Below are positions 13,542 to 55,260 of a stretch of 64,000 nt of DNA, piece by piece. Source of the stretch: an uncultured Pelagibacteraceae bacterium (GTDB lineage: Bacteria; Pseudomonadota; Alphaproteobacteria; Pelagibacterales; Pelagibacteraceae); contig CACIRC010000002.1 of the NCBI GenBank assembly GCA_902588895.1, positions 62,001 to 126,000 on the forward strand, written 5' to 3'. A model generated the notes under the pieces. It searched no databases. It was not told the DNA's origin and saw only the letters and a list, made by a program, of their open reading frames with translations. Both the position numbers and the translations under genes were made by a program. The stretch's first letter is position 1. Each line of letters starts with the position of its first letter.

Positions 13542-13546
13542 ATCAC

Positions 13547-31453: not shown

Positions 31454-31543
31454 TGGCGGAGAGACTGGGATTCGAACCCAGGAAAGAGTTGCCCCTTTGC
31501 CGGTTTTCAAGACCGGTGCTTTCAACCACTCAGCCATCTCTCC
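31454..31543 (-). tRNA. tRNA-Ser(TGA)
   Basis: Reverse complement GGAGAGATGGCTGAGTGGTTGAAAGCACCGGTCTTGAAAACCGGCAAAGGGGCAACTCTTTCCTGGGTTCGAATCCCAGTCTCTCCGCCA. Confidence 0.96.
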
Positions 31544-36413: not shown

Positions 36414-36585
36414 TTATAACTCCTTGTTTTTTTGGATTAGCCAGGCGATCGCTTACAAGTGCTTCAATAGTTTTAGAAATACTTATCTGAATTCCTGGCG
36501 TTATTGTTTTTGATAACCTATCTAATTTGGAATAGGTCTCGTGTTTTAATGAAACATTTCTGTATTTATTAAAATCTGTCATCAT
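36391..36585 (-). CDS. Putative ribbon-helix-helix regulator
   Basis: NVSLKHETYSKLDRLSKT...ISISKTIEALVSDRL. Confidence 0.5.
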   Translation of the reverse strand: MMTDFNKYRNVSLKHETYSKLDRLSKTITPGIQISISKTIEALVSDRLANPKKQGVINGYKKIV

Positions 36586-36822
36586 TTAATTATCAAATCT
36601 ATTTGGATCAAAGAATTCTTGGATGTCTTTCGTTCTTTGAGATTTTATTACATCCTGGAGTTCATAAATTTTAGAAGTGAGTTTTGTTATCTTCTCATTC
36701 TTTAAACCTATTTCAGTCCAGAGTTCAGCTATATGTGTTGTTTGCTTACCGGCAACATCTGTCAATCTATCGTTTGAAGATATTAGAGTTTCCAATAAAT
36801 ATTTTAATTCATACTTATTCAT
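36586..36822 (-). CDS. Small coiled-coil protein
   Basis: 78 aa, predicted heptads, contiguous operon. Confidence 0.45.
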   Translation of the reverse strand: MNKYELKYLLETLISSNDRLTDVAGKQTTHIAELWTEIGLKNEKITKLTSKIYELQDVIKSQRTKDIQEFFDPNRFDN

Positions 36823-37511: not shown

Positions 37512-37742
37512 TTATTCATCCTCCTTGAAAAATATGACCTGACATTCATCACACAATCCAGAGATATAATATTCGTCAGCGTCTATTTGATTTTTGTATG
37601 TTTTTGGATCTGTGATTTTATTGCAATTAGTACAGAAACTTTTGGCAATAGTTTTCTGAATATATCCGTGTAAATTAGCCAAAGCGTTTGGCTTCTCTTG
37701 GTCTATATCATTTACTAATACTGAAATCTGTTTGTTAATCAT
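37512..37742 (-). CDS. Small zinc-ribbon-like protein
   Basis: FCTNCNK...GLCDECQ. Confidence 0.5.
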   Translation of the reverse strand: MINKQISVLVNDIDQEKPNALANLHGYIQKTIAKSFCTNCNKITDPKTYKNQIDADEYYISGLCDECQVIFFKEDE

Positions 37743-38098
37743 ATTGTTTTACTAGGGACCGATTTTGAGTAGGGGAGATTAATTAAAAACTCCCCTGATA
37801 CATCCCTAGATTTACCTCCTTTTGGGGGTGTAATTTTTCTAGGTTTTCTGTTGTGAAATTTATTTGTTTGTGTAGCCGGTTCTAATCGTGTTTCGATTAA
37901 CCAAGTGTGAAAAGGAATTGGATCAATAACATAATAATTAGATCCTTTGACTTTTAGTAATCCTGGTATTTCAATTCCTGTATCTCTCCAGGCTTTGAAA
38001 GTTCTTAACTTTAAACCAAAATGCCTACACGCTTCTTCTATTAGGAAATACTTTTGTGGATATAGAATTTTTGTTGTTTCGTTTGCCATATCCGACAC
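37739..38098 (-). CDS. AlpA/excisionase-like helix-turn-helix protein
   Basis: YFLIEEACRHFGLKLRTFKAWRDTGIEIPGLLKVKGSNYYVI. Confidence 0.6.
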   Translation of the reverse strand: MSDMANETTKILYPQKYFLIEEACRHFGLKLRTFKAWRDTGIEIPGLLKVKGSNYYVIDPIPFHTWLIETRLEPATQTNKFHNRKPRKITPPKGGKSRDVSGEFLINLPYSKSVPSKTI

Positions 38099-38164
38099 AT
38101 AAGAAACAAGGCTCTGATAATCAATTCATTGTGTATCCGAATAATGCCTTAATGTATCCGAATA

Positions 38165-38674
38165 TTAAATCACGCCTCTAGCTTTTAAATCATCTACATA
38201 TTTCTGGTGTATTTCAATAAGTCTTAAAATAACTTTGTATGCTTTGTCAGAGTATCCTGTATTTGTTTGTCCAGGTTCTCTAGGATCCGGAATAGACTCA
38301 ATTTGCTGTTTGATTGTTTGATAATCTTCAATAATTGAAACTAGATCGCTCTCCTTAAAAAACTCTCCTGTCTCTGGTTCAACATAATCGTATCCACACT
38401 CAACCATATATTTTTTAGTGTCTTCTGGATCGTGCATAGATCTATCTTGATAATCTCTTAAAATATCTTTGTGGTTTTGTTTGATATCCTCAATACCTTT
38501 TTCCCAAGACTTAACTAGATTTGCAAACTTTGGTCCTTCTAGGAATTTGTATATAGCCTGTCTTCGTGTGATTGGTTTATTCTGTCTTTCAACTTCATCA
38601 ACTAAAACATAACATTGTTCAGCTAACCACCAATGAAATTTAGGTCTTCCTCGACCTTTGTTCTTGTTTGCCAT
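38165..38674 (-). CDS. Unknown element A protein
   Basis: 169 aa ORF adjacent to integrase. Confidence 0.6.
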   Translation of the reverse strand: MANKNKGRGRPKFHWWLAEQCYVLVDEVERQNKPITRRQAIYKFLEGPKFANLVKSWEKGIEDIKQNHKDILRDYQDRSMHDPEDTKKYMVECGYDYVEPETGEFFKESDLVSIIEDYQTIKQQIESIPDPREPGQTNTGYSDKAYKVILRLIEIHQKYVDDLKARGVI

Positions 38675-38691
38675 TCAAGGCATATAACATA

Positions 38692-40368
38692 TTACGCTGA
38701 CTTTTTCTTTGGAAATTTATAGATCTTCGCAACAATACCTTCGTTCTTCATAATCTCTGGTATCATTCCTTTGTCGTAATGTATGTCTATCGTCTTCTCT
38801 TGGTCGTGGTGTGAGATATACTTCATTTGTTTATTTGTTAATCCGGCGTCTTTTCCTAAAGTGACTAATGTCTTTCTTGCCATTCTAACAACGCCGTCTA
38901 TCTTTAAATCTTGTCTCAATGTATTCCAACAGCCTTTAGTGGATCGTAGTCTAGTTAAATGAGATCTTATATATCCGGACTCTTGATTATTTAATCGCTG
39001 ACTATCAATTCGTGTAGGACTAGGAAATAACCAAGGCACAAGTCTATATTGTTCATAGCCAGGTCTTTTGTAGATTGCTCTTATTTGGTCCAATAAATCT
39101 TTTACCGGTTCAGTAATAAATTTAATCTTACCTTTGTTTCTTCTCTTTGTAGTGCCTTTTCTGAATTGTATTTCTCCATAGATGTTTTCAATAGATCCGT
39201 CATCCTCCTGTACTTGGACCGGTGTATTATAAAATTTAATATCTTTTTTCTTTAGTTTAAAAACTTCTTCTTGTCTTTGTCCTAGTAAGAACACCATTTT
39301 AATATTCTCACTAGCAAACGGATAAGTCTCTGATAGTTCATCCAACTTATCAAATATCTTATTTAATTCTTCTACTGAAAATGCTTTGTCATTGTATTTA
39401 GAGTTAATCGCTTTCTCTGAATATTCTGTTGGTCTTTTAATCATCACGGCTAGAGTAGGATCTAGACCTGGACTTTCTCCTAAATAACCTTGGTACGAGG
39501 CAAAGTTCCAAAGTGTTTTAATAGCTGTTAAGCAATTCTTTTTATAAGAATAACTAGGTTTATCTTTTAGATATTTATTTATTCTACCGGTGTTTAATTC
39601 ATCTATAAATGTTTTACCAAGATCATTGTCATAGATAGCTGTCTCTCTGTTTAAGTTCTTTTTTGGATCTAGAATTATACCTTTACCTGACGGATACCAT
39701 TGAAACAATTCATCCCAACTTTCAGGCGCCGGTTTTCGTTTAGCATAATTAGGTCTAAATGTTATTCTTCCATTACCACTTTCATTGTCAGAGTAGGAGA
39801 GGAACCTGGATCTTTTGTTATAACCTATAAGAAATCTAGATTGTTCACGAATAGATTTAGCGCAAAGTGTACCTTCTGCTTTGATCTTTGGCATATTAGC
39901 TTTCATCAATTCAACAATAACTTCATTAATTGTCTTACGCTCTGCCTGGATATACTCCTCTGATTTGATTAATCTTTCTTTATCTGCTTTTTCTTTACGC
40001 TCTGTTTCATTTGGATTTTTAACCCAATGACCTTTGTCGTTAGTGTGGGATCTTATTATTGGATGTAGCTTATCTTCAACATCATTCACTCCCCAAGAAC
40101 CAGGCACAAACTTACCAACAGAATAATAATCATTCTTGCTGTTGAACCAGAAGGACAGCCAGAAATACTTTGATCCTGTATCTCTGTGGATACAAAGTTT
40201 TAATCCTTTTAAGATTGATCTCTTTGGTACATCAAAAGGAATTAATATTTTTCTTCTTCCTTTTGTCTCTCCGGCTTTGTTAATGTAAGTCCATTCCAAC
40301 TCATTTGTCTTAACAGCCTCAATGCTCTTATTATCAAATTTAATATGTCTCAAGTTTCCTTTTTTCAT
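38692..40368 (-). CDS. int: Tyrosine recombinase/integrase
   Basis: VFLLGQRQEEVFKLKKKDI (Arg I), ARKTLVTLGKDAGL (Arg II region), ISHHDQEKTIDIHYDK (H...Y); adjacent to att2. Confidence 0.88.
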   Translation of the reverse strand: MKKGNLRHIKFDNKSIEAVKTNELEWTYINKAGETKGRRKILIPFDVPKRSILKGLKLCIHRDTGSKYFWLSFWFNSKNDYYSVGKFVPGSWGVNDVEDKLHPIIRSHTNDKGHWVKNPNETERKEKADKERLIKSEEYIQAERKTINEVIVELMKANMPKIKAEGTLCAKSIREQSRFLIGYNKRSRFLSYSDNESGNGRITFRPNYAKRKPAPESWDELFQWYPSGKGIILDPKKNLNRETAIYDNDLGKTFIDELNTGRINKYLKDKPSYSYKKNCLTAIKTLWNFASYQGYLGESPGLDPTLAVMIKRPTEYSEKAINSKYNDKAFSVEELNKIFDKLDELSETYPFASENIKMVFLLGQRQEEVFKLKKKDIKFYNTPVQVQEDDGSIENIYGEIQFRKGTTKRRNKGKIKFITEPVKDLLDQIRAIYKRPGYEQYRLVPWLFPSPTRIDSQRLNNQESGYIRSHLTRLRSTKGCWNTLRQDLKIDGVVRMARKTLVTLGKDAGLTNKQMKYISHHDQEKTIDIHYDKGMIPEIMKNEGIVAKIYKFPKKKSA

Positions 40369-40394
40369 TCTGTCTCAAGTTTGCTACCAAGTTT
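40347..40394. repeat. Putative integrase arm-type sites, element A right end
   Basis: gtctcaagttt at 40347-40357 and 40372-40382, variant gctaccaagttt at 40383-40394. Confidence 0.65.
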
Positions 40395-40510
40395 GTGTGG
40401 ACCTGGTATCATTCGTAAATAAGCCTGATTAAACTTTAAATCAATATCTAGTTAATCTTTGACTTGTTTTGTATGTTAAACGATTTGGAGGTAAAAGTGA
40501 ATCCTAGGTA

Positions 40511-40558
40511 TTTCAAGACCGGTGCTTTCAACCGCTCAGCCATCTCTCCGTGAGCAAG
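40511..40558. repeat. att2: junction of elements A and B
   Basis: 48-bp repeat with one mismatch to att1 (accGctcagc). Confidence 0.95.
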
Positions 40559-40625
40559 GTTTTATAAGTATAATTGTAAAATTCAACAAAAAAACAGAGC
40601 TGTTTTTTTTATAAATTTTAATGTC

Positions 40626-40647
40626 GCTTCAAGTTTACTTCAAGTTG
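40626..40647. repeat. Putative arm-type sites, element B left end
   Basis: gcttcaagttt acttcaagttg, tandem 11-mers, starts 68 bp after the end of att2. Confidence 0.65.
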
Positions 40648-40685
40648 TCCTATAAAATCCTATAATCATTTGGTAAAGTATTACT

Positions 40686-43277
40686 ATGAAGCGTCTACTA
40701 GCATATCTGTTCATCGTTCTTGGTTTAGGGTTAATGTTTAATGTTAATGCTAATTCATCAAAGTATTCTTATGACAAAAATTTTATATGTTTTCAAGATG
40801 TTGGTAATGGCACAGTATTTGTTGGAACAAGTAAATCTGGTTGGGCTACAGAAGTAAATAATATAGAAAATTTATGTTCAATATTTGTATATGAGGACAA
40901 ACATCCAAAAAAATATAAAGAGATCACAGATAAATGGCCTTATCTTCTTAAAATAAACTTAGGTAATCATAAAACACCTGTCGCTGAACAATATTTAAAA
41001 TGGTGGAAACTAAGAGATAAGAAATTTTTAAAAATAAGTCATGGTAAGATATTATTAAAGGAAAAAACTAAAATTGTTAAAAATGAACCGAGCATAAAGA
41101 AAAAAATTGTTAAAAAAAGTAGTAACGATTGGAGAAAAAATTTAGCTGTTGAAGGGACAGTCTCCGAAAAGAAAAAAACTCTTCCAAAAAAAAATTTAAA
41201 TAAAAATTTAAGTTTAAATGATTATACATTTTATGCCTTTGAGTATCCGAACTCTAATACTTTAAGTAGAATTTATGGAACAAGAACATATAACAATTCT
41301 GAAGCAATTTTACTTTTAGAAAATGGAGATTGTAAATTCGGATCAAGTTTAGATAAATTAATTGAAAACACAAAATATGAAACAAGTTTTGATTTGAAAT
41401 GTAGCTATAGAGTGTTCAATAATAATATTCTTGCCAGAGTCCAAGACAGAATAAATATTTCTATATATCCAAAAGAAATGAAAGTGAGAGGAATTAATTC
41501 TATAGGCAAAACTATAAGTAGAGTTACAGATCAAAATGAGACTTTATATCTCGCAAAAACTTATAAAGCTTCAAAATTAATTGCTCAAATAGGGGGTACT
41601 GAGAGTAAAACTAAAATTGCTAAGAATAAAACTAGTCAAACAAAAAAGATTGCAAGGAATAATAAAACAATAAATTATTCTGACGGTTCAAAATATATTG
41701 GTGAAACTCAAAATGGCAAACGTCATGGCCAAGGTATATTTAAGTGGTCTAATGGAGATGAATATGAGGGAAATTTTAAAAATGGTAAATTAGTTGGTCA
41801 GGGCACTTTTGTTTTTGCTGATAGTGGAAATAAGTACGTAGGAAATTTTAAAGATAATAAATTCAATGGGTCAGGTTATTTTGTTTTTGCTGATACAGGT
41901 GATGTAGTAGTTGGTATTTATAAAAATGGAAAAATAATTGATGGTGATGCTGAAGTATATGATTCATCTGGAAAATATTCAAAAACATACGTTTATGGAA
42001 ATTCTACTGTTATAAAACAAAAGAATGAATGGTTAAAAAAAAGAAAAAAAACTCTTGCTGAAGCTTTAGAAGAAAATAACTTAAAATTTGAAGATACAGA
42101 AACAGTCATTGTCAAAAAAGAACAAAAGAATAAAGAAAGTAAAAATAAAAAAGTAGCTAAAGTTTCTGAGGAAAATCAAAAAGAAATTAAGATTAAAACT
42201 AAGGAATTAGATACAGAAGGACCAAAAATATTAATTGCTGAAACCATTACAGTTGATGACAGTAGTTATAGCTTAAAAGGAAAGGTTTCTGATGCAGGTT
42301 CAGATAAAATTTATTTAAAAATTGATGGACAAGATATTCCTTTGAAAAAAGGTAGTTTTAAGGTCGAACGTTATAGTCCTAATGATGAAGAAATTAAAAT
42401 TGTTGCGATTGATAAGTGGGGCAATGAATCAACTAAAATGATAAAAGTCATAGTTGATATTAAAGAAGAAACTGTTGTTGAAAAATTAGAACCACTAAAT
42501 CCATCCACTATTAGAGCCAAAAATTCAGGTGAGAAAGTTGCTCTTATTATAGGTATCGAAAATTATATTGAAGCCCCAATAACAAAATTTGCAAACCTTG
42601 ATGCTAAATATTTTTCAGACTATGCCAGAAAAGTTTTTGGAGTTAAGAAACAAAATATTAACTTATTAGTTGACGAAAATGCTACATTTGTAAAAACAAA
42701 TAAAGCTTTAACACTCTGGTTGAAATCAAAAATTAAAGCCAATCAAACAGATCTCATTATTTTCTTTGCTGGTCATGGATTGGCTTCAAGTAATGGAAAA
42801 GAACTTTATCTTCTTCCACAAGATAGTGATCCAGATTTATTAGATATAACCGCTTTATCTCGAACAAAATTATTTCAAACAATACTTGAATTAAATCCGA
42901 AGACTGTAACTATGTTTTTAGATGCTTGTTATAGTGGTGTTTCAAGAGATGAGGAAATGCTTCTTGCATCAGCTAGACCGATACGAATTTTAACTAAGGA
43001 ACAAGATGGTATACCAAATAATTTTACTATCTTTACTGCATCTCAAAATGATCAAATTTCATCTGGATTAGAAGAAGCAAAGCACGGAATATTTTCATAT
43101 TATTTAATGAAAGGTTTAGAAGGGAAGGCTGATAGCAATCAAGACAAAAAAATCACTAATGGTGAGTTGTTAGCTTATATGGATGAGAATGTATCTCAGA
43201 AGGCAGCAGAACAGGGTAGAGAGCAAAATCCATCTTTAGCTGGTGATCCAGATAAGGTTTTAATTAGTTATAAATAA
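40686..43277 (+). CDS. Exported caspase-like (C14) protease with MORN repeats and Ig-like module (caspase 1)
   Basis: Signal peptide; YIGETQNGKRHGQGIFKWSNGDEYEGNFKNGKLVGQG; VALIIGIENY...FFAGHG...FLDACYSG; DSNQDKKITNGE. Confidence 0.88.
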   Translation: MKRLLAYLFIVLGLGLMFNVNANSSKYSYDKNFICFQDVGNGTVFVGTSKSGWATEVNNIENLCSIFVYEDKHPKKYKEITDKWPYLLKINLGNHKTPVAEQYLKWWKLRDKKFLKISHGKILLKEKTKIVKNEPSIKKKIVKKSSNDWRKNLAVEGTVSEKKKTLPKKNLNKNLSLNDYTFYAFEYPNSNTLSRIYGTRTYNNSEAILLLENGDCKFGSSLDKLIENTKYETSFDLKCSYRVFNNNILARVQDRINISIYPKEMKVRGINSIGKTISRVTDQNETLYLAKTYKASKLIAQIGGTESKTKIAKNKTSQTKKIARNNKTINYSDGSKYIGETQNGKRHGQGIFKWSNGDEYEGNFKNGKLVGQGTFVFADSGNKYVGNFKDNKFNGSGYFVFADTGDVVVGIYKNGKIIDGDAEVYDSSGKYSKTYVYGNSTVIKQKNEWLKKRKKTLAEALEENNLKFEDTETVIVKKEQKNKESKNKKVAKVSEENQKEIKIKTKELDTEGPKILIAETITVDDSSYSLKGKVSDAGSDKIYLKIDGQDIPLKKGSFKVERYSPNDEEIKIVAIDKWGNESTKMIKVIVDIKEETVVEKLEPLNPSTIRAKNSGEKVALIIGIENYIEAPITKFANLDAKYFSDYARKVFGVKKQNINLLVDENATFVKTNKALTLWLKSKIKANQTDLIIFFAGHGLASSNGKELYLLPQDSDPDLLDITALSRTKLFQTILELNPKTVTMFLDACYSGVSRDEEMLLASARPIRILTKEQDGIPNNFTIFTASQNDQISSGLEEAKHGIFSYYLMKGLEGKADSNQDKKITNGELLAYMDENVSQKAAEQGREQNPSLAGDPDKVLISYK

Positions 43278-43852
43278 TGAAAAAATTTTTAGTATTACTT
43301 CTTTTAAGTTTTTTAGTTTTAATACCTAAGTCTTTTTCTAAAAACTATGGTGAAGGTCAATTAATACTAAACGATAGTATTATTAAATATTTCCATGAAT
43401 ATTTAAAAGGCAAAGGGAACAAAAAACCAATGATATTCACTATTTCTATTGATGGTAGTTATGCAACATATTGGTATTGCCCAGCTTCTCAATGCTCAGG
43501 CAACGATCCAGTTCAATTTATAAGAGCTTGCGAAAGAGATGCGGGAATTGAATGTAAAATTTTTGCAAAAGGAAGATATATAAAATGGAAGAATGGTATT
43601 AATAAAGGAAAAGGGAAAGAGTCAAAAATTAATTCAAAACAAAGTTTTAGCGAACTTAAAGCACGATTAACAGAACTAGGTTTTGTAAATGACGGAGTTT
43701 CAAAAACTACAAAATCTTACTCAATCGATAATTCAGAATCAAAAAAAAAGGAACCTGTTAAAACAGCAAAAACTGTTAAAAAAGGTGACTTAAATGGTTT
43801 TATGAATGCTCTAGAAAAAGCAAAAAAATGCTGGATTAACAATAGATGCTGA
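43277..43852 (+). CDS. Exported N-terminal part of caspase 2; frame-disrupted at A7 tract
   Basis: MKKFLVLLLLSFLVLIPKSFS signal; +1 frame continues open from 43830 into the 44112-45476 ORF. Confidence 0.7.
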   Translation: MKKFLVLLLLSFLVLIPKSFSKNYGEGQLILNDSIIKYFHEYLKGKGNKKPMIFTISIDGSYATYWYCPASQCSGNDPVQFIRACERDAGIECKIFAKGRYIKWKNGINKGKGKESKINSKQSFSELKARLTELGFVNDGVSKTTKSYSIDNSESKKKEPVKTAKTVKKGDLNGFMNALEKAKKCWINNRC

Positions 43853-44111
43853 TACTACTGCTAAACAATTTGGTTATAAAAATTTTGATGAATTCTTTAT
43901 TCATTATAAATCTGAATATGAAATTGGAGACTTATCTGTTGAAGACGCAAAGGAATTTTTACTAGGAGCAGATAATACGGTTGATATTGTAGAGTCTCAA
44001 GAAAACTTAGATAAATTACACAATCTTATAATTAATGACAAATATTTTAGAAAAAGAACTAGCTATTTTAAAAAAAAATATAATGATAAACTAAAACTTT
44101 TAGTAGTTTAC

Positions 44112-45476
44112 ATGAACTATGAAAAGGAAATGTCGAAAATTACTAAAAACCCAAATCTTAAAAAAGTTGGTAGATTTGATTTTAGGTTTCGCTTTGGTGG
44201 ATCGTTAAGTGGCATGAAGCCTTATGCCTTTGAAGACTGTGAAAAAAGTAGAAAAAAATATAAATTATCAGGAGGAGAATGTATTATTGTTGAAAGCAGA
44301 ATAGGTGATAAATTCACAAATCTTCTTGAGCCAAGACTTAAAGATAAAAATAAGGAAAAGACCTTAGTTACTCAGAAAAAAATAAAAATTAATAAGAAAT
44401 CTCTTGATAAAGATCCTCCTATTATTGTTATTAAAGATACTTTTAATGTTAAAAGCTCAAACTTTGAGATAAGTGGCAAAGTTAGTGATGAAGGGTCTAA
44501 ACTCGTCTACGTTAAGGTAGCAGGACAAGATATTCCTGTTAACAATGGAAAATTTAAAATTAAAAAATATAGCCCTTCAGATACTGAAATTAAGATCACA
44601 GCTATTGATGAATGGGGTAATGAGGCAACTAAAATAGTTAAAATTATCATTAAAGAAGATCAAAATACAGCTAAGTTACTAGAGCCTTTAAATCCGTTAG
44701 CATTAAAAACAAAAGCTAATGAAAATAAATTAGCTCTAGTTATTGGAATTGAAAATTATTCAGACCTAGTAAAAGCTACTTATGCAAATAATGATGCACA
44801 ATATTTTAAAGAATACGCAAAGAATTCTTTAGGTGTTAAAAAGGAAAATATTAAACTTTTAACAGATGAAAAAGCAACATTTATTGGAATAAATAAAGTT
44901 TTAAAAAAATGGTTAAAATCAAAAATTATTCCAAATAAGACTGAACTAGTAATTTTTTATGCAGGTCATGGTTTAGCAACTCAAGATGGAGATAAGCAAG
45001 ATCTTTATTTGTTACCACAAGATGGTGATGCTGACTTATTATCAATATCTTCTATTTCTAGGAATAGCTTTTTTGAGGAAATAAATAATTTAAATCCTAA
45101 ATCGGTGACTATATTTTTTGATGCTTGCTATAGTGGAACTTCAAGAGATAACAAATCTTTATTAGCTAGCTCTAGACCAATAAAAATTTTAAAAGAAACT
45201 GACAATAATATTCCAGAAAATTTCACAATCTTTAGTGCTTCGCAACTCAATCAAATATCTTCAGGTTTAAAAAATGGTGAGCATGGTATTTTTAGTTATT
45301 ATCTAATGAAAGGTATGGAAGGTACGGCTGATATTAATAAAGATAAAAAAATTACCAATAATGAATTATTAAAATATTTAGATTTAAACGTTTCTAAGAG
45401 TGCTGCGGAATGGGGGCGAGAGCAAAATCCATCTCTTGCAGGAGATCCAGATAAGGTTTTGATAAGCTATAGATAA
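44112..45476 (+). CDS. Caspase-like (C14) protease, caspase 2; ORF extends open upstream to 43830
   Basis: LALVIGIENY...FYAGHG...FFDACYSG; DINKDKKITNNE. Confidence 0.85.
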   Translation: MNYEKEMSKITKNPNLKKVGRFDFRFRFGGSLSGMKPYAFEDCEKSRKKYKLSGGECIIVESRIGDKFTNLLEPRLKDKNKEKTLVTQKKIKINKKSLDKDPPIIVIKDTFNVKSSNFEISGKVSDEGSKLVYVKVAGQDIPVNNGKFKIKKYSPSDTEIKITAIDEWGNEATKIVKIIIKEDQNTAKLLEPLNPLALKTKANENKLALVIGIENYSDLVKATYANNDAQYFKEYAKNSLGVKKENIKLLTDEKATFIGINKVLKKWLKSKIIPNKTELVIFYAGHGLATQDGDKQDLYLLPQDGDADLLSISSISRNSFFEEINNLNPKSVTIFFDACYSGTSRDNKSLLASSRPIKILKETDNNIPENFTIFSASQLNQISSGLKNGEHGIFSYYLMKGMEGTADINKDKKITNNELLKYLDLNVSKSAAEWGREQNPSLAGDPDKVLISYR

Positions 45477-45823
45477 TGAAAAAAATCTGTAAGATAGTAG
45501 CTAATATTCTAATAATTAGCTTGCTTTCAGGATGTATTACTCCTGAGGAAAAAGCTCAACTCAAATTAGAGCAGCAAAGAAAAATAATCGAAGCAGATAA
45601 CAATAAATGTATAGGTTATGGTTTTACTAAAGGCACTGATCAATTCTCAAACTGTATGATGCAACTAGACATTTCAAGAAAAGAGGAAGCAGCTTTAAAA
45701 AAAATACTAAGGTGTGAAAGAGCTAAACAAAGACAAGAAAATAAAAAAGGACCTAGTGCTAGTGGCTGGGGTGCAGTGTTGGAGGGTGCTCTTGATGGCT
45801 TAGAAGTTTCTGATTGTGATTAA
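45476..45823 (+). CDS. Small putative lipoprotein
   Basis: ILIISLLSGC lipobox; overlaps caspase 2 stop. Confidence 0.65.
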   Translation: MKKICKIVANILIISLLSGCITPEEKAQLKLEQQRKIIEADNNKCIGYGFTKGTDQFSNCMMQLDISRKEEAALKKILRCERAKQRQENKKGPSASGWGAVLEGALDGLEVSDCD

Positions 45824-45827
45824 AAAA

Positions 45828-47090
45828 TTAAGCTCCACTAAATTCAGCTACATATTGCTCAAGCTCTTTAAAAGCATCAGTATTTTTTAATTTATTAACT
45901 TCTGCTTTAACACTTAAACTATTATCTATTTCAGCAATAAAGTTTTTATACGCAAGACTTACTGGGAACTCTATAACAACAAAAGTTCTATATTTACCAT
46001 CTGCTATTGCTGCCATCTTTGTTTTGAAAATTTTGTAACCTCTAATAGTTGCATCTTTTACAACTACATTAGAAATTCTTTGCATTTCAGTTTTTAAAGT
46101 TAGATCTGCATCAACACCTGCTTCTTTAATAACTAAATTTGTTTTGCTACTAATTCGGTTTTGCATTTGTGTAGATAATTTAATTAGAGCATTTTCAACA
46201 GCTCTTTGTTCTGAATTATCTAAATCTGCTGAAATAGCACTTCCTCTTGCGTACATAATTGTTTCAGAGCTTGCAGGCATTGAAACATACCAATCAGGAA
46301 TTTCAGCATTAATTTTTAATTCTTCTGCTTCTTTAAGTTTTTTTACTTCTTCAACTTGTTTTCTAAGGGCCGCTATATATTCATCTTCAGTGGTAAACTC
46401 ATATTCTGACATTGGAGTTTCACCCATAAATAAAATTTCTTTTTTTACTTTTTCAATAGCATCTAATCTTGTTTGTTTTCTTTCTTCTGCTTTTCTTTCC
46501 TCTTCTTCTTTTTTTTCTGCTTCAGCTTTTTCAGCTTTTCTTTTTTCTTTAATATCTTTTATTTGTTTTTTAAGAGCTTTTATATCTTCATCAGAGTCAA
46601 TATCGCTAGTATCAATTATTGGTTCTTCACCCAAAGCTGCAAGCTCATCTTTAAGCATTTCAACAGCAACTGCAATTTTTGCCTCTCTTTGTTTTTTCTC
46701 TTCTGCAGCTTTTTTCTTAGCTTTAACATCTTCAATTTGTTTTCTTAAAGCAATAATTTGTTCATCAGCTTCAATTTCTTTATTTTCTTTGCTTTCAACA
46801 GTTTCCCCTAAATCTTCTAATTCTTTATTAAGTTCAGCTTTTAATGCTTCGACTTTTTTTAATTTTTCTAATTGTAATTTTAATTCATCTATCCATTTTT
46901 GAAGAGAAGATAATAAATGCTTTCTTTTAACTGGTGTACCACCTAAATCAGTAATTTCTTTTTTTAACTCTTTTATTATTTCTTTTTTTGAAAGGTGATT
47001 GTCAGCATACGAGTAATTTAAACTTGAAGTACTTAATATAAATACTGAAAAAATTACTATAAGTAATTTTGATATTTTTTTTGATATCAT
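45828..47090 (-). CDS. Exported coiled-coil repeat protein with LPP20-like C-terminal domain
   Basis: Signal peptide; repeated LKxEL..LGE.P...ALRKQI/VE.VK units; SEQRAVENALIKLSTQM. Confidence 0.6.
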   Translation of the reverse strand: MISKKISKLLIVIFSVFILSTSSLNYSYADNHLSKKEIIKELKKEITDLGGTPVKRKHLLSSLQKWIDELKLQLEKLKKVEALKAELNKELEDLGETVESKENKEIEADEQIIALRKQIEDVKAKKKAAEEKKQREAKIAVAVEMLKDELAALGEEPIIDTSDIDSDEDIKALKKQIKDIKEKRKAEKAEAEKKEEEERKAEERKQTRLDAIEKVKKEILFMGETPMSEYEFTTEDEYIAALRKQVEEVKKLKEAEELKINAEIPDWYVSMPASSETIMYARGSAISADLDNSEQRAVENALIKLSTQMQNRISSKTNLVIKEAGVDADLTLKTEMQRISNVVVKDATIRGYKIFKTKMAAIADGKYRTFVVIEFPVSLAYKNFIAEIDNSLSVKAEVNKLKNTDAFKELEQYVAEFSGA

Positions 47091-47875
47091 TTAATTAACA
47101 TATAACCAGAATAATGATTTTCCATCAAGATGTTTGTTTTTGTAAATTCTCTTTTTAAACTCTCAATTTGTGAATAACTTTTCAGCCAATTAATATCTTT
47201 TTCTGAAGCTACAAATATTAAATATTCATCTACTTTATTTTCCTTTATTTCTTCAGGAAAATAGGTCTCGTATTTTAATACCAACTGTCCTTCAATTAAA
47301 TTATTTATATTTTTGTTATATTCTTTATTTGGAAATATTTTGGTAATTATATTAAATTTCTTACCTCCATATGGAAGCCATTGAAAAATAGTCATATACA
47401 TTTTTTTTGATGTATTTATTTCAATTTCCATGTTTTCACCTGATCGAAATATCTCTTGATTAAGTTTTACATCAAATTGAAACGTAGGATCCAAGTTTTT
47501 TTTTACTGGTTCAACATTTGCCCTGATAGTTACTTCACAGAAAAATATTCCATCACTACCAAGCTCTTCTCCATAATTTGGTTTACCTAATCTTTTTGAA
47601 AAAGTGATTACTCCATTAAGTTCGAATAACGATAATTGATTTCTTTCACACTCAAATTCACCATCAACCTCAGAACAATTGGACACAACATCAGATGATA
47701 TAGTTTGGCCAATTGATTTTATTATTGCATTTTTTTTAGCTTTTTGTTCAGCAATTTTACAAGATTGATTTGGTGAAATATTACCTACATGTCTGTGTTT
47801 ACCTTTTTCGGTAACTATTTCTGCTTTTAAAGGAGTTATTATCAATAAAAAAATTAAAATTAATTTCTTAATCAT
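47087..47875 (-). CDS. Exported DUF4384-like protein
   Basis: IFRSGENMEIEINTSKKMYMTIFQWLPYGGKKFNIITKIFPN. Confidence 0.6.
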   Translation of the reverse strand: MIKKLILIFLLIITPLKAEIVTEKGKHRHVGNISPNQSCKIAEQKAKKNAIIKSIGQTISSDVVSNCSEVDGEFECERNQLSLFELNGVITFSKRLGKPNYGEELGSDGIFFCEVTIRANVEPVKKNLDPTFQFDVKLNQEIFRSGENMEIEINTSKKMYMTIFQWLPYGGKKFNIITKIFPNKEYNKNINNLIEGQLVLKYETYFPEEIKENKVDEYLIFVASEKDINWLKSYSQIESLKREFTKTNILMENHYSGYMLIK

Positions 47876-49410
47876 TAATTTTCATCAAGTAATACAACTA
47901 CCAAGGCTATACTTGGAAGCATTTTTTCATATAATTTTGCTTTATTAAATTTTGCTGACTTAACAGGAACACTTTCTTTATGTTCAAAAACTTTTTTAAT
48001 CATATTGCTTTTAATTGCATATCCCATGTCTGTTGGAATTTGACCCATTTCATCTAACCATTTTTTTTTATCTAAAGCCGCAAAACTTACACCTACTAAT
48101 TTTCCATTTAGATTAAATAATGGACCTCCACTGTTTCCAGAATTAATTGCTGCTGTTGTTAAAAAAATTCCCATTTCGTCATCAAATACTTTACTTATAA
48201 TTCCTTGAGTAATTGTTGGTTGTTCAAATGTAATTCCTATACCAGGATAGCCTATGCTTATAACATCATCACCAGCCTTAGGTATTTCAAAACTTTTAGA
48301 ATCTATAGAGAAATTTTTAGGGTAGGGTGAAGCAAGTTCTAATATGGCTAAGTCATAATCTTTTGAAAAAGCCGCAACACTAGCATTAGTAACTTTACCA
48401 GTTCCATTTCTTACAGCTATTTTTTTAGCACCCTCGATTACATGATGATTAGTAATTACATATTTTCCATCACCAACAATAAAACCACTACCATGTCCAT
48501 TTGGCGCAAAAGCAAACTCCTCATAGATTGGTGTTACTTTATTTTCGTCATAATTTGAAATTTCTTCCTCTTCATATTCTTTTTGTTTCTCTTTTTCTTT
48601 TTTTTTAATTTTTATAGGTTTGTCAAAATAATTTGGATTTACTGACAATATCCATGCTTTAGCTTGCTTTTGTTTTTTTTTATTACGATTAAACTCATGA
48701 TATTTATAAACAATTATTTTATACTCTATTGCTTTATCTTTATTTCCATTAAATAAATGAAGACTAGCTAATTGGTTTAATACTTTAATATTTTTTGGAT
48801 CTCTTTTTATAAATTCTTCTAATATTTGTATTGCTTGGGTTACATCATCAAAAGCGTTGTAATAGTCAGAAATAGCTAATGCAACTTCAGCATCTTTTCT
48901 GTTATCGTATAATTCATTTAAAATTTTAATGCCTTCTTCTCCATCACCAATTCTAGTTTTAGCAATTGCTAATATAATTTTTGGTCTAATTTTATTTGAA
49001 TTTATTTTAATTGATTGTTCGGCAAATTTGATTGCTTCATTAATTTTTCCTTGAGCTAATCTAACCTCTGCTAATCCAATAAATGTTAAAGCTTCAATAT
49101 TTTCATCTGATGTAAAAAAGTTTTTTTGGTAAAATTCTTCAGCTTTTTCGATTTGATTAATTTTTAAATAAATATCACCAAATAAAAGATCAATATTTTC
49201 TTGTTGTATCTCACTACTAATATTTATTTTTTTTAATTTTTTAATTGCTTCTTGTAAATTATCTCTATTTATCTCGCTTCTAATTTCACGTAAATTTTCA
49301 TTAAATGATAATGCAAATGCAGATTGTATATAAGAGACTAAAATTAATATAAATATAACTATTTTTTTTTTAATTTTCATAAGACTTGATAATATTAATA
49401 AAACTCTCAA
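47875..49410 (-). CDS. Exported TPR - trypsin-like serine protease
   Basis: TPR-like helices; GSGFIVGDGKYVITNHHVI, KDYDLAIL, SGNSGGPLFN catalytic triad. Confidence 0.88.
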   Translation of the reverse strand: MRVLLILSSLMKIKKKIVIFILILVSYIQSAFALSFNENLREIRSEINRDNLQEAIKKLKKINISSEIQQENIDLLFGDIYLKINQIEKAEEFYQKNFFTSDENIEALTFIGLAEVRLAQGKINEAIKFAEQSIKINSNKIRPKIILAIAKTRIGDGEEGIKILNELYDNRKDAEVALAISDYYNAFDDVTQAIQILEEFIKRDPKNIKVLNQLASLHLFNGNKDKAIEYKIIVYKYHEFNRNKKKQKQAKAWILSVNPNYFDKPIKIKKKEKEKQKEYEEEEISNYDENKVTPIYEEFAFAPNGHGSGFIVGDGKYVITNHHVIEGAKKIAVRNGTGKVTNASVAAFSKDYDLAILELASPYPKNFSIDSKSFEIPKAGDDVISIGYPGIGITFEQPTITQGIISKVFDDEMGIFLTTAAINSGNSGGPLFNLNGKLVGVSFAALDKKKWLDEMGQIPTDMGYAIKSNMIKKVFEHKESVPVKSAKFNKAKLYEKMLPSIALVVVLLDEN

Positions 49411-49480
49411 TTTAAGTCTAAATAAAAATGAATAAATTATAATTTAATTATTAATTTTTGTTATTAAATAAAGGTTTTTT

Positions 49481-50857
49481 TTGATATGTTTTTATTATTT
49501 TAATATGTTTGCACAAATTAAAATTCTTATATTTTTATTAATTATATCGTTATTTTTTACATCATTTTACGCCAATTCTGACGAGATAAAAAAAATCAAT
49601 GAAGATTTAAAAAATATTAAAAATCTTTATCAGCAAGGTGTATTAGATGATGATGCTTATAACTCAGCTAAAAATAGATTAGAACTTAAAAAACAAAAAT
49701 TAATTGATAACAAAAAAAAAGTAAAAAAATCAAACACAGATAGCGAGACTTTAGATAAACAAATTGAGGTACTAGAAAAACTTTATAAAGACGGAACACT
49801 TTCGGAAGAAGAATTCTTAAAAACAAAAAAGTTTTTAACAGACAAAGAGGAGTCAGGTCAAAATATTGATTTTAAGGATATTAAAACAAAACCTTATGCT
49901 CAATATACTTTAAATATAAAAAAAACAGTTGGTAATAAAAATTGGGAAAAAGCTGAAATAATTTTTAAAAATTATAGAATTTATACCCATAGACCAGGAG
50001 GAATTAAAGTTGTAAGAATTTCAGATCAAAAACCACTTGTTAGAATTACAGATAATTACAAAATTAAATATTTTGACAATAGCAAAGATGTTATTCGCAT
50101 AGAGAAAACACAATATAGACCTGCAAATTTGAGTGAGGCTATTGGAGGTCTTGATAAGGAAATTGAAAGCAAAGTAAAAGAAATCTCAGAGATACTTAAA
50201 AATCCTTTCAAAAAAAGAAATAAAACTTTATTTGATCCTGAAACTCATAAATTAGAATTATTTATTGAGGATCAAAGAATACTTCATTATGTAGGAAGAT
50301 ATGTAAGACAACACAAGGCTTTCTTTTACCAAGTTTTAACAGATAAGGCAGAACCATTTCACTATTATATAAGAATCGATGGTAAAGCTGCAATTGCCCT
50401 TAATATGAAATTTTTTAATGCAAAAATTGATAAAGCAGTAAGGAAAGTTAAAAAAGAATTAGCAATAGAATACAACATCAGTGAAGAAGAAATACAAAAA
50501 ATCATAGATGAAAAAGTTGGTGAGGAAACTAATAGAGCTATAGAGGAACAAATGCAAAGTGCAATTAATGATAGTGTTAAAGAAGCTATAAAGCAAACTA
50601 TTGGACAAGAACTTTCTAATATGCTTGTATCTGCAGTAGAACAGGCTACAGGTGAGGCAATAGACTCTGCTATTGAACAAGAGTTAGCTGATGCTATAGA
50701 TCAAGAAATTGCAAGAGCTGTTGCAATGGGTATTGATGAAGCTGCTGTTACAGCTGGCTGGGAAGCATATTTTGAAGTGCTAGCACAGGGAGGTACTTAT
50801 GAAGAAGCTAATGCCGCTGCTTACGAAGCATGTGGTTCAGCTTGTGATAATTATTAA
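49481..50857 (+). CDS. Exported protein with two SHOCT-like motifs and C-terminal helical repeats
   Basis: IKNLYQQGVLDDDAYNSAKNRL and LEKLYKDGTLSEEEFLKTKKFL; AIEEQM..AINDSV..AI.. repeats. Confidence 0.65.
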   Translation: MICFYYFNMFAQIKILIFLLIISLFFTSFYANSDEIKKINEDLKNIKNLYQQGVLDDDAYNSAKNRLELKKQKLIDNKKKVKKSNTDSETLDKQIEVLEKLYKDGTLSEEEFLKTKKFLTDKEESGQNIDFKDIKTKPYAQYTLNIKKTVGNKNWEKAEIIFKNYRIYTHRPGGIKVVRISDQKPLVRITDNYKIKYFDNSKDVIRIEKTQYRPANLSEAIGGLDKEIESKVKEISEILKNPFKKRNKTLFDPETHKLELFIEDQRILHYVGRYVRQHKAFFYQVLTDKAEPFHYYIRIDGKAAIALNMKFFNAKIDKAVRKVKKELAIEYNISEEEIQKIIDEKVGEETNRAIEEQMQSAINDSVKEAIKQTIGQELSNMLVSAVEQATGEAIDSAIEQELADAIDQEIARAVAMGIDEAAVTAGWEAYFEVLAQGGTYEEANAAAYEACGSACDNY

Positions 50858-50863
50858 ATTAAA

Positions 50864-52543
50864 ATGAAAAAAAATTTATTATATTTATTTGTATTTATTT
50901 TCCTAAAACTAAATTTTGTAGCGTATGCTTCATATCAGACTGAAAAAACTTTAATTAATAACAATGTTATAGAAAAAAATTTAAATTGTAATGATCTAGT
51001 TAGATTGTTAGGAGGATTAAATAAAATTGAACTCTTGTGGTTAGGAAATTTAAAACAAGAAAAGTTTCAATATGCTTTAATAAATTCTTCAGAAAAATCT
51101 AATCAAAAAATATTTTATCTTTGTGAAAATTCTAAAGATAAAAAAATAACATCAAAAGACACGATGCAGGTTCTAAGCGAAAGGAATATATTAAAGATTT
51201 ATTATAATTCTTATGACTTATTCACTGATATTTTTTCCATTACATCCAAAGAAAGCAGAAATTATATTATGTCAACATTGAATTTAAGATATTTTAATAT
51301 TTCAAAAAATGACTTGAATAGGGCGTATATTGAGGGTCTGATGAAATTAAATGAAAAATTAAACCCAACAAAAGAAAAAAAATTAGCTGAAAACAAAAAA
51401 TTAAAAAAAATTGATAATAAAACAAAAGAAAAAGTTGAAAATAAAGAAAAATTTGTTCCAGAAAAAACTACTGATAAAGATCCACCAAAAATAATAATAG
51501 CTCAAAATTTAACTTCTAATAGCTATAGCTATAAATTAACTGGTGTAGTTAAAGACGATACTTCGAAAAACCTATATGTAGAAATTGATGGTATGATCCA
51601 GCAAGCTAAAAATGGCAGATTTAGCTTTGATAGGTTTAGTGTAATAGATGAAAAAGTATCTATAATAGCTATTGATGAATGGGGCAACAAATCAAAGCCT
51701 AAGATAGTAAATGTTAAAATTGATATTAAAGAAAAAAAAATAGTAAAAGAATTTGAAAAATTAAATCCATTAAAAATAAACACAAATAATTTAAATTCTA
51801 ATAAGGTAGCTTTGATAATAGGTATTGAAAATTACTCTTCAAACCCAAAAGCAACTTATGCTAATTTTGATGCAAAATATTTTTATCAATATGCCGTAAA
51901 TATATTTGGTGTTAAAAATGAAAATATAAAGTTATTAGTTGATGAAGATGCTAATTTAGTCTCTTCGTTAGGTGCTTTAAATAAGTGGTTACCTAGTAAA
52001 ATAAAAGAAAATCATACTGAATTAATAATTTATTTTGCTGGACATGGTTTATCAGATCCTAGCGGTAAAGAGTTGTATTTAATTCCGCAAGATGGAGATA
52101 GTGATCTTTTAGAACGAACGGCAATTTCTCGTAATGAAATTTTTGATATCGTAAAAAAATTAAAACCAAAAAAAGTTATTGTTTTTTTTGATACATGTTA
52201 CAGTGGTATTTCAAGAGATGAAGAAACATTGATGGCTGATGCTCGTCCATTAAGAATTATTGCAAATGAGCAGGATGTACCTAAAAATTTTACAATATTT
52301 TCAGCCTCACAACTTGATCAAATTTCATCTGGATTAAAAGAGGTTAAACATGGAATATTTTCGTATTATTTAATGAAAGGTTTGGAAGGTAATGCTGATA
52401 TTAATAAAGATAAAAAAATTACCAATGGTGAGTTGTTGGCTTATATGGACGAAAATGTTTCTCAAAAGGCCTCAGAACTTGGTAGAGAACAAAATCCATC
52501 TTTAGCCGGTAATCCTGATAAGGTTTTAATTAGTTATAGATGA
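50864..52543 (+). CDS. Exported caspase-like (C14) protease, caspase 3
   Basis: VALIIGIENY...YFAGHG...FFDTCYSG; DINKDKKITNGE. Confidence 0.88.
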   Translation: MKKNLLYLFVFIFLKLNFVAYASYQTEKTLINNNVIEKNLNCNDLVRLLGGLNKIELLWLGNLKQEKFQYALINSSEKSNQKIFYLCENSKDKKITSKDTMQVLSERNILKIYYNSYDLFTDIFSITSKESRNYIMSTLNLRYFNISKNDLNRAYIEGLMKLNEKLNPTKEKKLAENKKLKKIDNKTKEKVENKEKFVPEKTTDKDPPKIIIAQNLTSNSYSYKLTGVVKDDTSKNLYVEIDGMIQQAKNGRFSFDRFSVIDEKVSIIAIDEWGNKSKPKIVNVKIDIKEKKIVKEFEKLNPLKINTNNLNSNKVALIIGIENYSSNPKATYANFDAKYFYQYAVNIFGVKNENIKLLVDEDANLVSSLGALNKWLPSKIKENHTELIIYFAGHGLSDPSGKELYLIPQDGDSDLLERTAISRNEIFDIVKKLKPKKVIVFFDTCYSGISRDEETLMADARPLRIIANEQDVPKNFTIFSASQLDQISSGLKEVKHGIFSYYLMKGLEGNADINKDKKITNGELLAYMDENVSQKASELGREQNPSLAGNPDKVLISYR

Positions 52544-55065
52544 ATAAATTTAAATTAATAAAAATAATAATTATTTTTATATTCTTTTTATTTTACTCAA
52601 AATTACTCTTTGCTGAGAATCTTTATATAAATTCGTCAGAGCTTTCGCATTTAGAAAAAATTAAAAATATTAAAAATAAAAAAAAACAAAAACCAAGAAA
52701 AGATGGTGTTACATACGTTGGACAAAAAAAATTAATATTACAAAATGGTTATGGAATAATGAGATTTGTAGATGGAGGAATTTTTGCAGGATATTTTCAT
52801 AATGGTAATCTGAGAGATGGAGCGTGGATAATTAATGGAGACGTAAGTTATGAAACATACGAATATATAGAAAAAAATAAACCAAAAAAAGATTCGAATG
52901 GTCTACCAATAATAAATAAAACTACATTCAGACCAGCTAAAGAGTTTGAAATTGATTACATTAAAGAAAATGTTTTTTTAAAAAATAAAATTAAATATGA
53001 AGAATATTTAAAGATAACAGGTAAAGACAAACTTATAGCAAAGAAAAAAGTAGAGAAATCCGAGAAGACTGTAAAAAAATCTAATGAAGACGATCAGTAT
53101 TACAAATACTCAAAAACTGGTTTTAATATTTTTAGTGGAAATCTAGATGATGGTACAAATCAACCTTATTTAGTTAGAGCCTACTACGAAGATGATTGTA
53201 TTAAGCATGGTACAGTTGTTTATATGAATAATGATCAAAAACCAAAACAAGAAATAATTGGTATTTTTGCAAATTGTCAAGTTTCAGACTCAGATTCAAA
53301 AATCTCAAATGTGTTTTTTGATGAAAATGGTAAAATATTAGAAATTACACTTCATAAAAAAGATGTGTCTCATATTTATGGTGTAAGAAGGTTAATTGGT
53401 GTTGAAGTAGAAAATACACCTAATAAAACAGGTGTTAGAATTCGTGGTTTTCAAAAAAATTTACCTGCTATTGACAGTAGTTTAGAAGAAAATGATCTTC
53501 TACTCAGAGTAAATGGAATTGACATAAAAAATACACGTCAATTTATACAGTTAATAAAAGAATCTGAAATTAACAAAAAAATAAGTTTTGATTATATAGC
53601 TAGCAAAAATATTAATGATAATCTTAGTTTTGATAAAACAAAAATTAAAACGTTAAGTCTTACGCCAAAACAAATTAAATCGAAAATTGAGTTAAGATTA
53701 ACATATATTCCCAAAGATGATGTTTATCATGAATATATTTTTGACCATACAAGTCAAAAATCTTCAAATATTTTAGATTTAATTGAATTAAAAAAAGACT
53801 CTAATGAATGGATAAGCAGACAATCTACTTTAAAGAAAGAATTTAATGAATTATATGATTATTTTAGATCTATTAGAAAAGTAAGAAATAATAAAATACC
53901 ACTCTTTGATTATAGTCAGCTTTATATAGTTAGTAATAAAAAGACAAATAATAATATTGCAAAAGAAACTCAAGAAGAATTTAAACCAGATGGTCTTGAT
54001 GATAAAGATCCACCAATTATTAAAGTTGCAAATACTTTTACCTTTGAAAACAGTAGTTATTCAATAAAAGGCGAGGTTAAAGATAATAAATCAGATTTAA
54101 TTTATATAGAAGTGGATGGAATTCTATCAGAGGCAATAAATGGTACATTTGAAATAGATAGATTTAGTCCTGTTGATGAGGAAATTAAAATTGTAGCCAT
54201 TGATAAATGGGGCAATAGGTCTGAACCAACCATCATCAATGTTAAAATTAAAAAGAAAAAAAAATTAGCTAAAAAACTAGATAAACTTAATCCATTAGTT
54301 AATAAAATTAACGAAATCGAAGGCAGAGTTGCTTTGATAATAGGTATAGAAAATTATCAAAAAAACCCAAAGGCAAGTTATGCTAATTTAGATGCTGAAT
54401 TTTTCTATGAATATTCAAAAAATGTTTTTGGTGTTAAAGATGAAAATATAAAATTACTTGTAAATGATCAAGCAAGTTTAATTGAAACTCTAGGTGCATT
54501 AAATAAATGGTTACCTGGTAAAATAAAAAAAAATAAAACAGAATTAATAGTTTATTTTGCTGGACATGGGTTGGCTTCTTCAGATGGTGAAGAACTATAT
54601 ATTCTACCACAAGATGGTGATAGTGATTTATTAGCAAGAACTGGAATATCAAGAACTGAGCTTCATGAAACTATAATTAAATACTCACCAAAAAATGTAA
54701 CAATATTTTTGGACACTTGTTACAGTGGAGTTTCTAGAGACGAACAAACTTTACTTGCATCTGCTAGACCAGTAAGAATAATTGCTAATAATAAAAGTAC
54801 ACCTAAAAATTTTACAATATTTTCAGCCTCACAACTTGATCAAATTTCATCTGGATTAAAAGAGGCCAAACATGGAATATTTTCGTATTATTTAATGAAA
54901 GGGTTGGAAGGTAAAGCAGATCTAAATAATGATAATAAAATTACAAATGGAGAACTCCTTGCTTATATGGATGAAAATGTATCACAAAAAGCAGCAGAGC
55001 TTGGTAGACAGCAAAATCCTTCTCTAGCTGGTGATCCTGATAAAGTTTTAATTAATTATAGATAA
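52540..55065 (+). CDS. Exported caspase-like (C14) protease with MORN-like and PDZ-like regions, caspase 4
   Basis: VALIIGIENY...YFAGHG...FLDTCYSG; DLNNDNKITNGE; SSLEENDLLLRVNGIDIKNTRQF. Confidence 0.87.
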   Translation: MNKFKLIKIIIIFIFFLFYSKLLFAENLYINSSELSHLEKIKNIKNKKKQKPRKDGVTYVGQKKLILQNGYGIMRFVDGGIFAGYFHNGNLRDGAWIINGDVSYETYEYIEKNKPKKDSNGLPIINKTTFRPAKEFEIDYIKENVFLKNKIKYEEYLKITGKDKLIAKKKVEKSEKTVKKSNEDDQYYKYSKTGFNIFSGNLDDGTNQPYLVRAYYEDDCIKHGTVVYMNNDQKPKQEIIGIFANCQVSDSDSKISNVFFDENGKILEITLHKKDVSHIYGVRRLIGVEVENTPNKTGVRIRGFQKNLPAIDSSLEENDLLLRVNGIDIKNTRQFIQLIKESEINKKISFDYIASKNINDNLSFDKTKIKTLSLTPKQIKSKIELRLTYIPKDDVYHEYIFDHTSQKSSNILDLIELKKDSNEWISRQSTLKKEFNELYDYFRSIRKVRNNKIPLFDYSQLYIVSNKKTNNNIAKETQEEFKPDGLDDKDPPIIKVANTFTFENSSYSIKGEVKDNKSDLIYIEVDGILSEAINGTFEIDRFSPVDEEIKIVAIDKWGNRSEPTIINVKIKKKKKLAKKLDKLNPLVNKINEIEGRVALIIGIENYQKNPKASYANLDAEFFYEYSKNVFGVKDENIKLLVNDQASLIETLGALNKWLPGKIKKNKTELIVYFAGHGLASSDGEELYILPQDGDSDLLARTGISRTELHETIIKYSPKNVTIFLDTCYSGVSRDEQTLLASARPVRIIANNKSTPKNFTIFSASQLDQISSGLKEAKHGIFSYYLMKGLEGKADLNNDNKITNGELLAYMDENVSQKAAELGRQQNPSLAGDPDKVLINYR

Positions 55066-55076
55066 ATATAATTCTT

Positions 55077-55098
55077 GGTACAAGTTTGGTACGAGTTT
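55077..55098. repeat. Putative arm-type sites, element B right end
   Basis: ggtacaagttt ggtacgagttt, tandem 11-mers. Confidence 0.65.
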
Positions 55099-55212
55099 TG
55101 TAGCTTAGGCTAGTCAAGAATGATGTGTTTTTCATAAAAGATAAATTTCAAAAATGAGAATTGTCTTGATTAGTATGTGAATCGTCTTTAAGTGAATAGG
55201 GTAAGCTTTGTA

Positions 55213-55260
55213 TTTCAAGACCAGTGCTTTCAACCACTCAGCCATCTCTCCGTGAGCAAG
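55213..55260. repeat. att3: right boundary of element B
   Basis: 48-bp repeat with one mismatch to att1 (ccAgtgc). Confidence 0.95.

Follow-up and report, generated by a model that had tools for sequence, protein, structure and literature searches.

The question raised by this locus is whether a cluster of caspase-fold proteases, set around a trypsin-like protease and predicted to be exported almost throughout, forms one system, and what such a system would do. The window, i.e., the whole stretch of 64,000 nucleotides under analysis, belongs to a genome of 1.15 Mb (79.6% complete, 36 contigs) whose relatives are Pelagibacteraceae (SAR11). SAR11 bacteria are among the most abundant in the sea, and their genomes are streamlined and their defences poorly known. 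Positions 40511-55251 of the window are an island with copies of nucleotides 1-39 of tRNA-Ser(TGA) at both ends, and genes A to J span 40686-55065 of it; all the genes named in the initial annotation are present (Table 1). The evidence assembled below suggests a real and conserved protease module, apparently exported, whose caspases have exchangeable front ends and which may represent an undescribed envelope alarm or defence system.

Table 1. Features of the island and of its integration target in the window (nt, nucleotides; trio, genes G, F and E; L numbers denote loci).
Feature	Position	Strand	Basis
tRNA-Ser(TGA), integration target	31454..31543	-	ARAGORN, Rfam; nt 1-39 = 31505-31543
tRNA-Ser nt 1-39 copy, left boundary of the island	40511..40549	-	consensus match 39/39; repeat with 31505 and 55213
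Gene A: signal peptide, MORN repeats, Ig-like domain, caspase; 863 aa	40686..43277	+	Pfam C14 55.8 bits
Gene B: exported, 191 aa; probably N-terminal part of caspase C, with a frame change between	43277..43852	+	homologues; L137 ORF
Gene C: Ig-like domain and caspase, 454 aa as called	44112..45476	+	Pfam C14 67 bits
Gene D: small lipoprotein, lipobox LLSGC	45476..45823	+	homologues beside the trio in L018, L036, L051, L053
Gene E: exported LPP20-domain protein, coiled-coil repeats	45828..47090	-	Pfam LPP20; alignment A4
Gene F: exported DUF4384-like protein, conserved cysteines	47087..47875	-	alignment A6; model pLDDT 80
Gene G: exported TPR and trypsin-fold protease, HtrA-like, no PDZ	47875..49410	-	Trypsin_2; alignment A2
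Gene H: exported SHOCT-domain protein, divergent from G	49481..50857	+	SHOCT; homologues beside the trio in several Pelagibacteraceae
Gene I: exported N-terminal domain, Ig-like domain, caspase; 559 aa	50864..52543	+	C14 58.2 bits
Gene J: exported PDZ-containing N-terminus, Ig-like domain, caspase; 841 aa	52540..55065	+	C14 54.8 bits
tRNA-Ser nt 1-39 copy, right boundary of the island	55213..55251	-	repeat; relatives have an empty site

Four of the island proteins match Peptidase_C14 far over the Pfam cut-off of 21.4 bits (54.8-67 bits), and all four contain the GHG and D[AT]CYSG motifs, a DPPI...WGN-type Ig-like stretch and the LNP linker, just as had been read from the sequence at the outset. 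The AlphaFold2 model of gene I (mean pLDDT 84.8) retrieves MALT1, metacaspases and the bacterial GSU0716 in Foldseek, with E about 1e-11 to 1e-9 and TM-scores up to 0.71 depending on the target, and this model supports the proposed caspase fold for the Ig-caspases. Their common layout consists of an export signal, a variable N-terminal region, a linker enriched in Lys and Arg, the Ig-like domain (matched by Glucodextran_B and Big_6 in one homologue) and the conserved caspase domain. The variable region of gene A contains MORN repeats (54.2 bits, cut-off 22.5), and that of gene J a PDZ-like domain (PDZ_2, 26.1 bits, cut-off 27).

Gene C, however, lacks a signal peptide. The frame in which it is read stays open as far back as position 43815 and overlaps the end of gene B, and another genome (L137) has a single ORF in which the counterparts of the last part of B and the first part of the C frame adjoin without a break; B and C are therefore probably one exported caspase gene divided by a frame change. 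This split would account for the missing signal peptide on C, and it may be real or a single-cell assembly error. The caspase domain of C also sits on an unusually long tree branch (0.6), which fits relaxed constraint without proving it. The initial picture of four exported caspases is thus only partly retained: nearly all the members appear exported, but C lacks a signal peptide, and while there are four C14 domains, one is probably frame-split, the number varies between genomes, and a fifth caspase is located on another contig of the host genome. This fifth one (contig 6, L020:9258-11612) is fused to a PotD-like binding protein and is flanked by tRNA-Leu 5' halves; its PotD part is 64% identical to the separate PotD-like gene of the host. 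Binding-protein fusions resembling it are seen at L037, L041 and L066.

We turn to the proteins encoded between the caspases. The TPR-trypsin, LPP20 and SHOCT assignments made earlier, like that of the MORN repeats, pass their Pfam cut-offs: gene G matches Trypsin_2 at 92.7 bits (cut-off 27.6) with an intact H/D/S triad, gene E belongs to the LPP20 family at 31.8 bits (cut-off 25.9), and gene H matches SHOCT at 32.8 bits (cut-off 27). The trypsin triad is invariant in four aligned members and kept in nearly all others. Gene F, the most specific marker of the system, scores 19.6 bits with the DUF4384 profile against a cut-off of 27, and one of its homologues 31.8 bits. Its model (pLDDT 80.3) has an Ig-like sandwich at the C-terminus, and a fold search with this model gives weak Ig-like matches only (TM-scores near 0.3) and no informative relative. 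Three cysteines of F (C39, C67, C76) are invariant in the alignment and C113 is nearly so, a conservation as would be expected in an oxidising compartment.

The next question is whether the module acts outside the cytoplasm. Export was scored using a simple and crude rule of hydrophobicity and lipobox rather than SignalP, and under this rule 95 of 103 complete caspase N-termini are scored as exported (82 signal-peptide-like, 13 lipobox-like). Taken with the cysteines of F, the fusions to SBP_bac_8, SBP_bac_5, OpuAC and SurA_N domains, and an ECF sigma/anti-sigma pair beside one of the operons (L106), these scores are the basis on which we infer export. The enzymes themselves appear to be maintained: the strict His and Cys motifs are found in 108 of 119 caspases, and with five more that have both residues in near-motifs (DACFTG, DNCYSG) the dyad is kept in 113; of the remaining six, some are truncated at the end of a contig (L037, L095) and the others are weak outliers (L065, L072, L078, L082).

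Metacaspases and paracaspases cut after Lys or Arg and have the same DxC motif; cleavage after these residues is accordingly predicted for the Ig-caspases as well. In the 60 residues before the Ig-like domain K+R make up 22%, compared with 16% further upstream and 12.5% within the Ig-caspase part; the linker exceeds the upstream region in 67 of 78 members, which are related to each other so that the significance is overstated. Since DxC-type caspases cut after Lys or Arg, the basic linker is a plausible site for auto- or cross-cleavage. The same specificity for gene G, i.e., cleaving after Lys or Arg in the manner of trypsin, was considered and rejected: six positions ahead of the catalytic Ser, different members have A, K or D. 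With this S1-pocket residue so variable, cleavage of the basic linker by the trypsin is not directly predicted.

While the enzymatic halves are conserved, the front ends are not. The Ig-caspase halves have a mean column identity of 54-63%, whereas the 87 N-terminal parts have 6% and are not alignable. In pairs such as L046_4380/L051_11095, L039_8825/L051_8339, L081_1066/L091_9212 and L055_4233/L050_7869, and in two genes that lie side by side (L102_1234/L102_3090), the C-terminal halves are 90-95% identical with no detectable similarity between the N-terminal parts. Many of the swapped SAR11 pairs have similar signal peptides as well (52-80%), and a similar signal peptide together with a near-identical C-terminal half indicates that the middle part is exchanged between two conserved flanks. 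Homologous N-terminal parts, too, are less alike than the C-terminal halves that follow them (63% and 90% for gene J and L046_7172). Pfam recognises MORN repeats in 16 of the N-terminal parts, PDZ in 5, TPR/Sel1 in several, SurA_N and WG repeats in one each, and four binding proteins of the ABC-transporter type (SBP_bac_8 twice, SBP_bac_5 and OpuAC once each).

Does the gene set exist as a unit elsewhere? With profiles of the caspase, the trypsin, F and E as queries, the trio of G, F and E is found together with Ig-caspases in many Pelagibacteraceae as well as in SAR116, a further alphaproteobacterium (L064/L106) and Comamonadaceae (L081, L093), and the recurrence at tRNA-Ser in related genomes, which the initial annotation had proposed to look for, is among these findings. 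The order G-F-E is conserved across loci, and the trypsin-DUF4384-LPP20 trio is the constant part of the system. A failure of structure prediction to give a caspase fold, or homologues scattered without co-occurrence, had been named as evidence against such a system; the predicted fold is that of a caspase, and the genes do co-occur. F is present at E < 1e-80 in five of the family's 397 genomes, and an Ig-caspase at E < 1e-130 in those five and no others; six more have C14 proteins with E around 1e-10 on a different branch. In genomes first known from loci without the full trio, F is located elsewhere, in spite of the incomplete assemblies, in 7 of 12 for Pelagibacteraceae loci and in 6 of 13 other genomes. 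In the class, 2 of 385 genomes have a strong F (L106, L107). In the L106 operon a GNA1162-like TPR lipoprotein separates F from E, and at L107 the trypsin and LPP20 genes are split, the trio is degraded, and no caspase is present within the 16 kb read; L061 and L063 hold trio remnants with no adjoining trypsin. The caspase and trypsin profiles find no relatives in viral contigs, phage records give no match, and the plasmids have no F match and distant caspases only (24-33% identity). An ECF sigma factor and a zinc-finger anti-sigma factor adjoin the caspase-trypsin operon of an alphaproteobacterial MAG (L106:16711-18197). The caspases on a contig filed under Crocinitomicaceae (Bacteroidota, L047) are almost the same as those at the Pelagibacteraceae locus L042, which probably reflects a binning error.

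We next consider the boundaries of the island. In relatives the site is empty, and tRNA-Ser is followed immediately by the DMT-type transporter gene that lies downstream here. No integrase is found in 40511-55251, in agreement with the integrase-less element first described, and the island could be moved in trans by an integrase that uses the same site. A separate element with integrase (PHROG match, E 6.5e-15) and primase is located between tRNA-Ser and position 40511. It was considered as a part of the system and dropped: the caspase genes of L039, L046 and L063 follow tRNA-Ser directly. This element (31544-40510, at the same tRNA-Ser) has a divergent integrase, a primase with TOTE-type AEP and DUF5906, and a RusA-like resolvase; no capsid gene is seen in it and it is possibly a phage satellite. 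An Rfam search of 31-57 kb matches the tRNA alone.

Caspase genes also occur singly. The lone caspase genes are cassettes at tRNA-Ser and tRNA-Leu, with two in tandem at L039 and others at tRNA-Leu(TAA) in L041, L043, L045, L054 and the host genome, and each is bordered by copies of tRNA nt 1-39 that are exact or nearly so. The tRNA-Leu copy occurs two or three times in many of the genomes in the genus. Fourteen tRNA-Leu arrays, picked for having repeats, contain a very mixed cargo, and restriction or modification genes are in 4 of the 14. The caspases are thus tied to a site that also holds defence genes but is not reserved for them. Tandem arrays of small cassettes are common in the genus at tRNA-Leu(TAA) (L020, L041, L043, L045, L054, L061, L136-L149); the borders of these cassettes are exact copies of nt 1-39 and no integrase is seen inside them. 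One cassette interval (L140:1043-6349) has ten tandem ORFs, each beginning with a prepilin-like FTLIELLVVVAIIGILAAVG sequence. Another tRNA-Leu cassette, which has no caspase, contains a trypsin-like protein with a B-like segment beside a D-like lipoprotein (L137:1507-3359).

We now compare the island with described systems. PADLOC reports no described system on it, only general matches to caspase and trypsin domains and weak ones to coiled coils, NCBIfam has no equivalog for the set, and no earlier description of the gene set was found in the open-access literature; one may exist elsewhere. The prokaryotic metacaspases and orthocaspases surveyed by Asplund-Samuelsson et al. (2012, PMC3501461) share the C14 domain, the His-Cys dyad and many domain fusions, and the available part of that survey mentions N-terminal helices that are in some cases probable signal peptides and suggests extracellular roles; it describes neither a fixed operon of TPR-trypsin, DUF4384-like and LPP20 genes, nor N-terminal exchange, nor tRNA-bounded caspase cassettes, all of which are present here. 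The conflict systems of Kaur et al. (2020, PMC7159879; 2021, PMC8195603), including those with EACC1, share the caspase-trypsin pairing, the combination of constant and highly variable parts and a predicted proteolytic activation. They are centred on NTPases, EADs or EACC1 and nucleotide signalling, whereas the island has no NTPase or EACC1, nearly all its proteins are apparently exported and the variable part precedes the caspase. No EACC1 partner gene and no STAND, MoxR or GTPase partner is found among the ten island proteins, which agrees with the initial view that this is not an NTPase-caspase system, and the NCBIfam model of the EACC1-associated caspase (NF047832) gives 59.9-70.8 bits against a cut-off of 140.

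The closest solved fold is that of the MALT1 paracaspase (Foldseek E 2.8e-11; identity 14-18% over the listed fold matches). MALT1 has Ig domains beside its paracaspase domain and prefers a basic P1 residue; it is a eukaryotic cytosolic signalling protein, whereas the island caspases are bacterial and predicted to be exported. Gene G shares with HtrA/DegP, its best NCBIfam match, the trypsin-fold domain and a periplasmic location (predicted for G), but has N-terminal TPRs and no PDZ domain; it falls outside HtrA/Do (TIGR02037, 100.2 bits against a cut-off of 416.2), the protease part alone matching. Repeats of tRNA fragments are known from the additive islands of Methylophilaceae (PMC10872708), and such additive flexible genomic islands and tycheposons likewise have cargo at tRNA genes, repeated tRNA pieces and streamlined planktonic hosts. 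The repeat here, by comparison, is the tRNA 5' half (nt 1-39), with one to few genes per cassette, and the caspase cassettes have no integrase.

What might such a module do? Its anatomy is well supported; for its function, we infer a periplasmic protease cascade with exchangeable sensors, probably for envelope-stage defence or regulated death, and put this reading at somewhat under one in two (about 0.45). The N-terminal regions would sense, or serve as bait for, envelope disturbance, with phage entry or lysis proteins, a foreign effector, lost envelope integrity or a bound ligand as candidate triggers. The sensor would keep its caspase inactive until the basic linker is cut by the trypsin and/or a neighbouring caspase; the released Ig-caspase would then cleave envelope proteins, and the infected cell would die or arrest. 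The LPP20 and DUF4384-like proteins may form an envelope-anchored platform that restrains the trypsin and the caspases. For phage defence in particular the evidence is indirect, consisting of the rapidly swapped N-termini, the rarity and the tRNA hotspot shared with restriction-modification cassettes. No known defence gene is recognised within the island and no immunity protein or inhibitor for the system.

The strongest rival is a module for envelope homeostasis or nutrient response, in which the N-termini (binding-protein, PDZ, TPR and MORN) read a nutrient or stress state and the proteases remodel or clear envelope proteins with no killing. The four fusions to ABC-transporter binding proteins, the ECF sigma/anti-sigma pair and the GNA1162-like and LPP20 lipoproteins adjoining the L106 module, and an HtrA-like trypsin that has no PDZ all fit it, and indeed the links to binding proteins and ECF sigma suit nutrient or envelope-stress sensing equally well. 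Such a module would hardly be expected, however, to be rare and patchy (5 of 397 family genomes), mobile at tRNA sites and swapped in its N-termini, all unlike housekeeping, and we regard this reading as rather doubtful. From the fast N-terminal exchange, the rarity and the mobility, a role in conflict is favoured over housekeeping at about even odds. A bolder form of the defence reading is a periplasmic, NTPase-free, inflammasome-like immunity, in which the exchangeable bait or sensor domains of exported caspases would have been taken from envelope proteins of the same cell (binding proteins, SurA-like, PDZ), and the caspases would spread between genomes as single-gene tRNA cassettes and sense an attack before or at entry; we consider it unlikely as a whole.

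The exported caspases might instead be weapons against neighbour cells or their surface, akin to polymorphic toxins with exchangeable delivery parts. The conserved C-terminal enzyme, the variable N-terminal part and the orphan copies in the genomes do recall polymorphic toxins, and fratricide has been proposed for extracellular bacterial metacaspases in the survey cited above (PMC3501461). No secretion system, adhesin, pre-toxin domain or immunity gene is recognised, however, and the SBP and SurA-like parts normally remain periplasmic, which leaves antagonism quite improbable. That the caspases are mobile cargo of little or no host function, spread by their position between tRNA attachment sites in a partly decaying island, is suggested by the diverse single-gene cassettes at tRNA-Leu, the B/C frame split, the trio remnants with no trypsin beside them (L061, L063) and the degraded trio of L107, but is very improbable given that the catalytic residues and the gene order are kept in distant lineages.

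If the cascade with exchangeable sensors is the right reading, bacterial caspase systems also act outside the cytoplasm, with neither NTPases nor nucleotide signals, and such systems operate in SAR11. A DUF4384-like protein with trypsin and LPP20 neighbours can serve others as a search marker, and the swapped N-termini provide a list of candidate sensed targets. Multi-copy small exported proteins with the motif IRDFQIEGMSIGDSLL flank the caspase loci at L019:1744-4295 and 12136-15440 and at L055:6930-8474.
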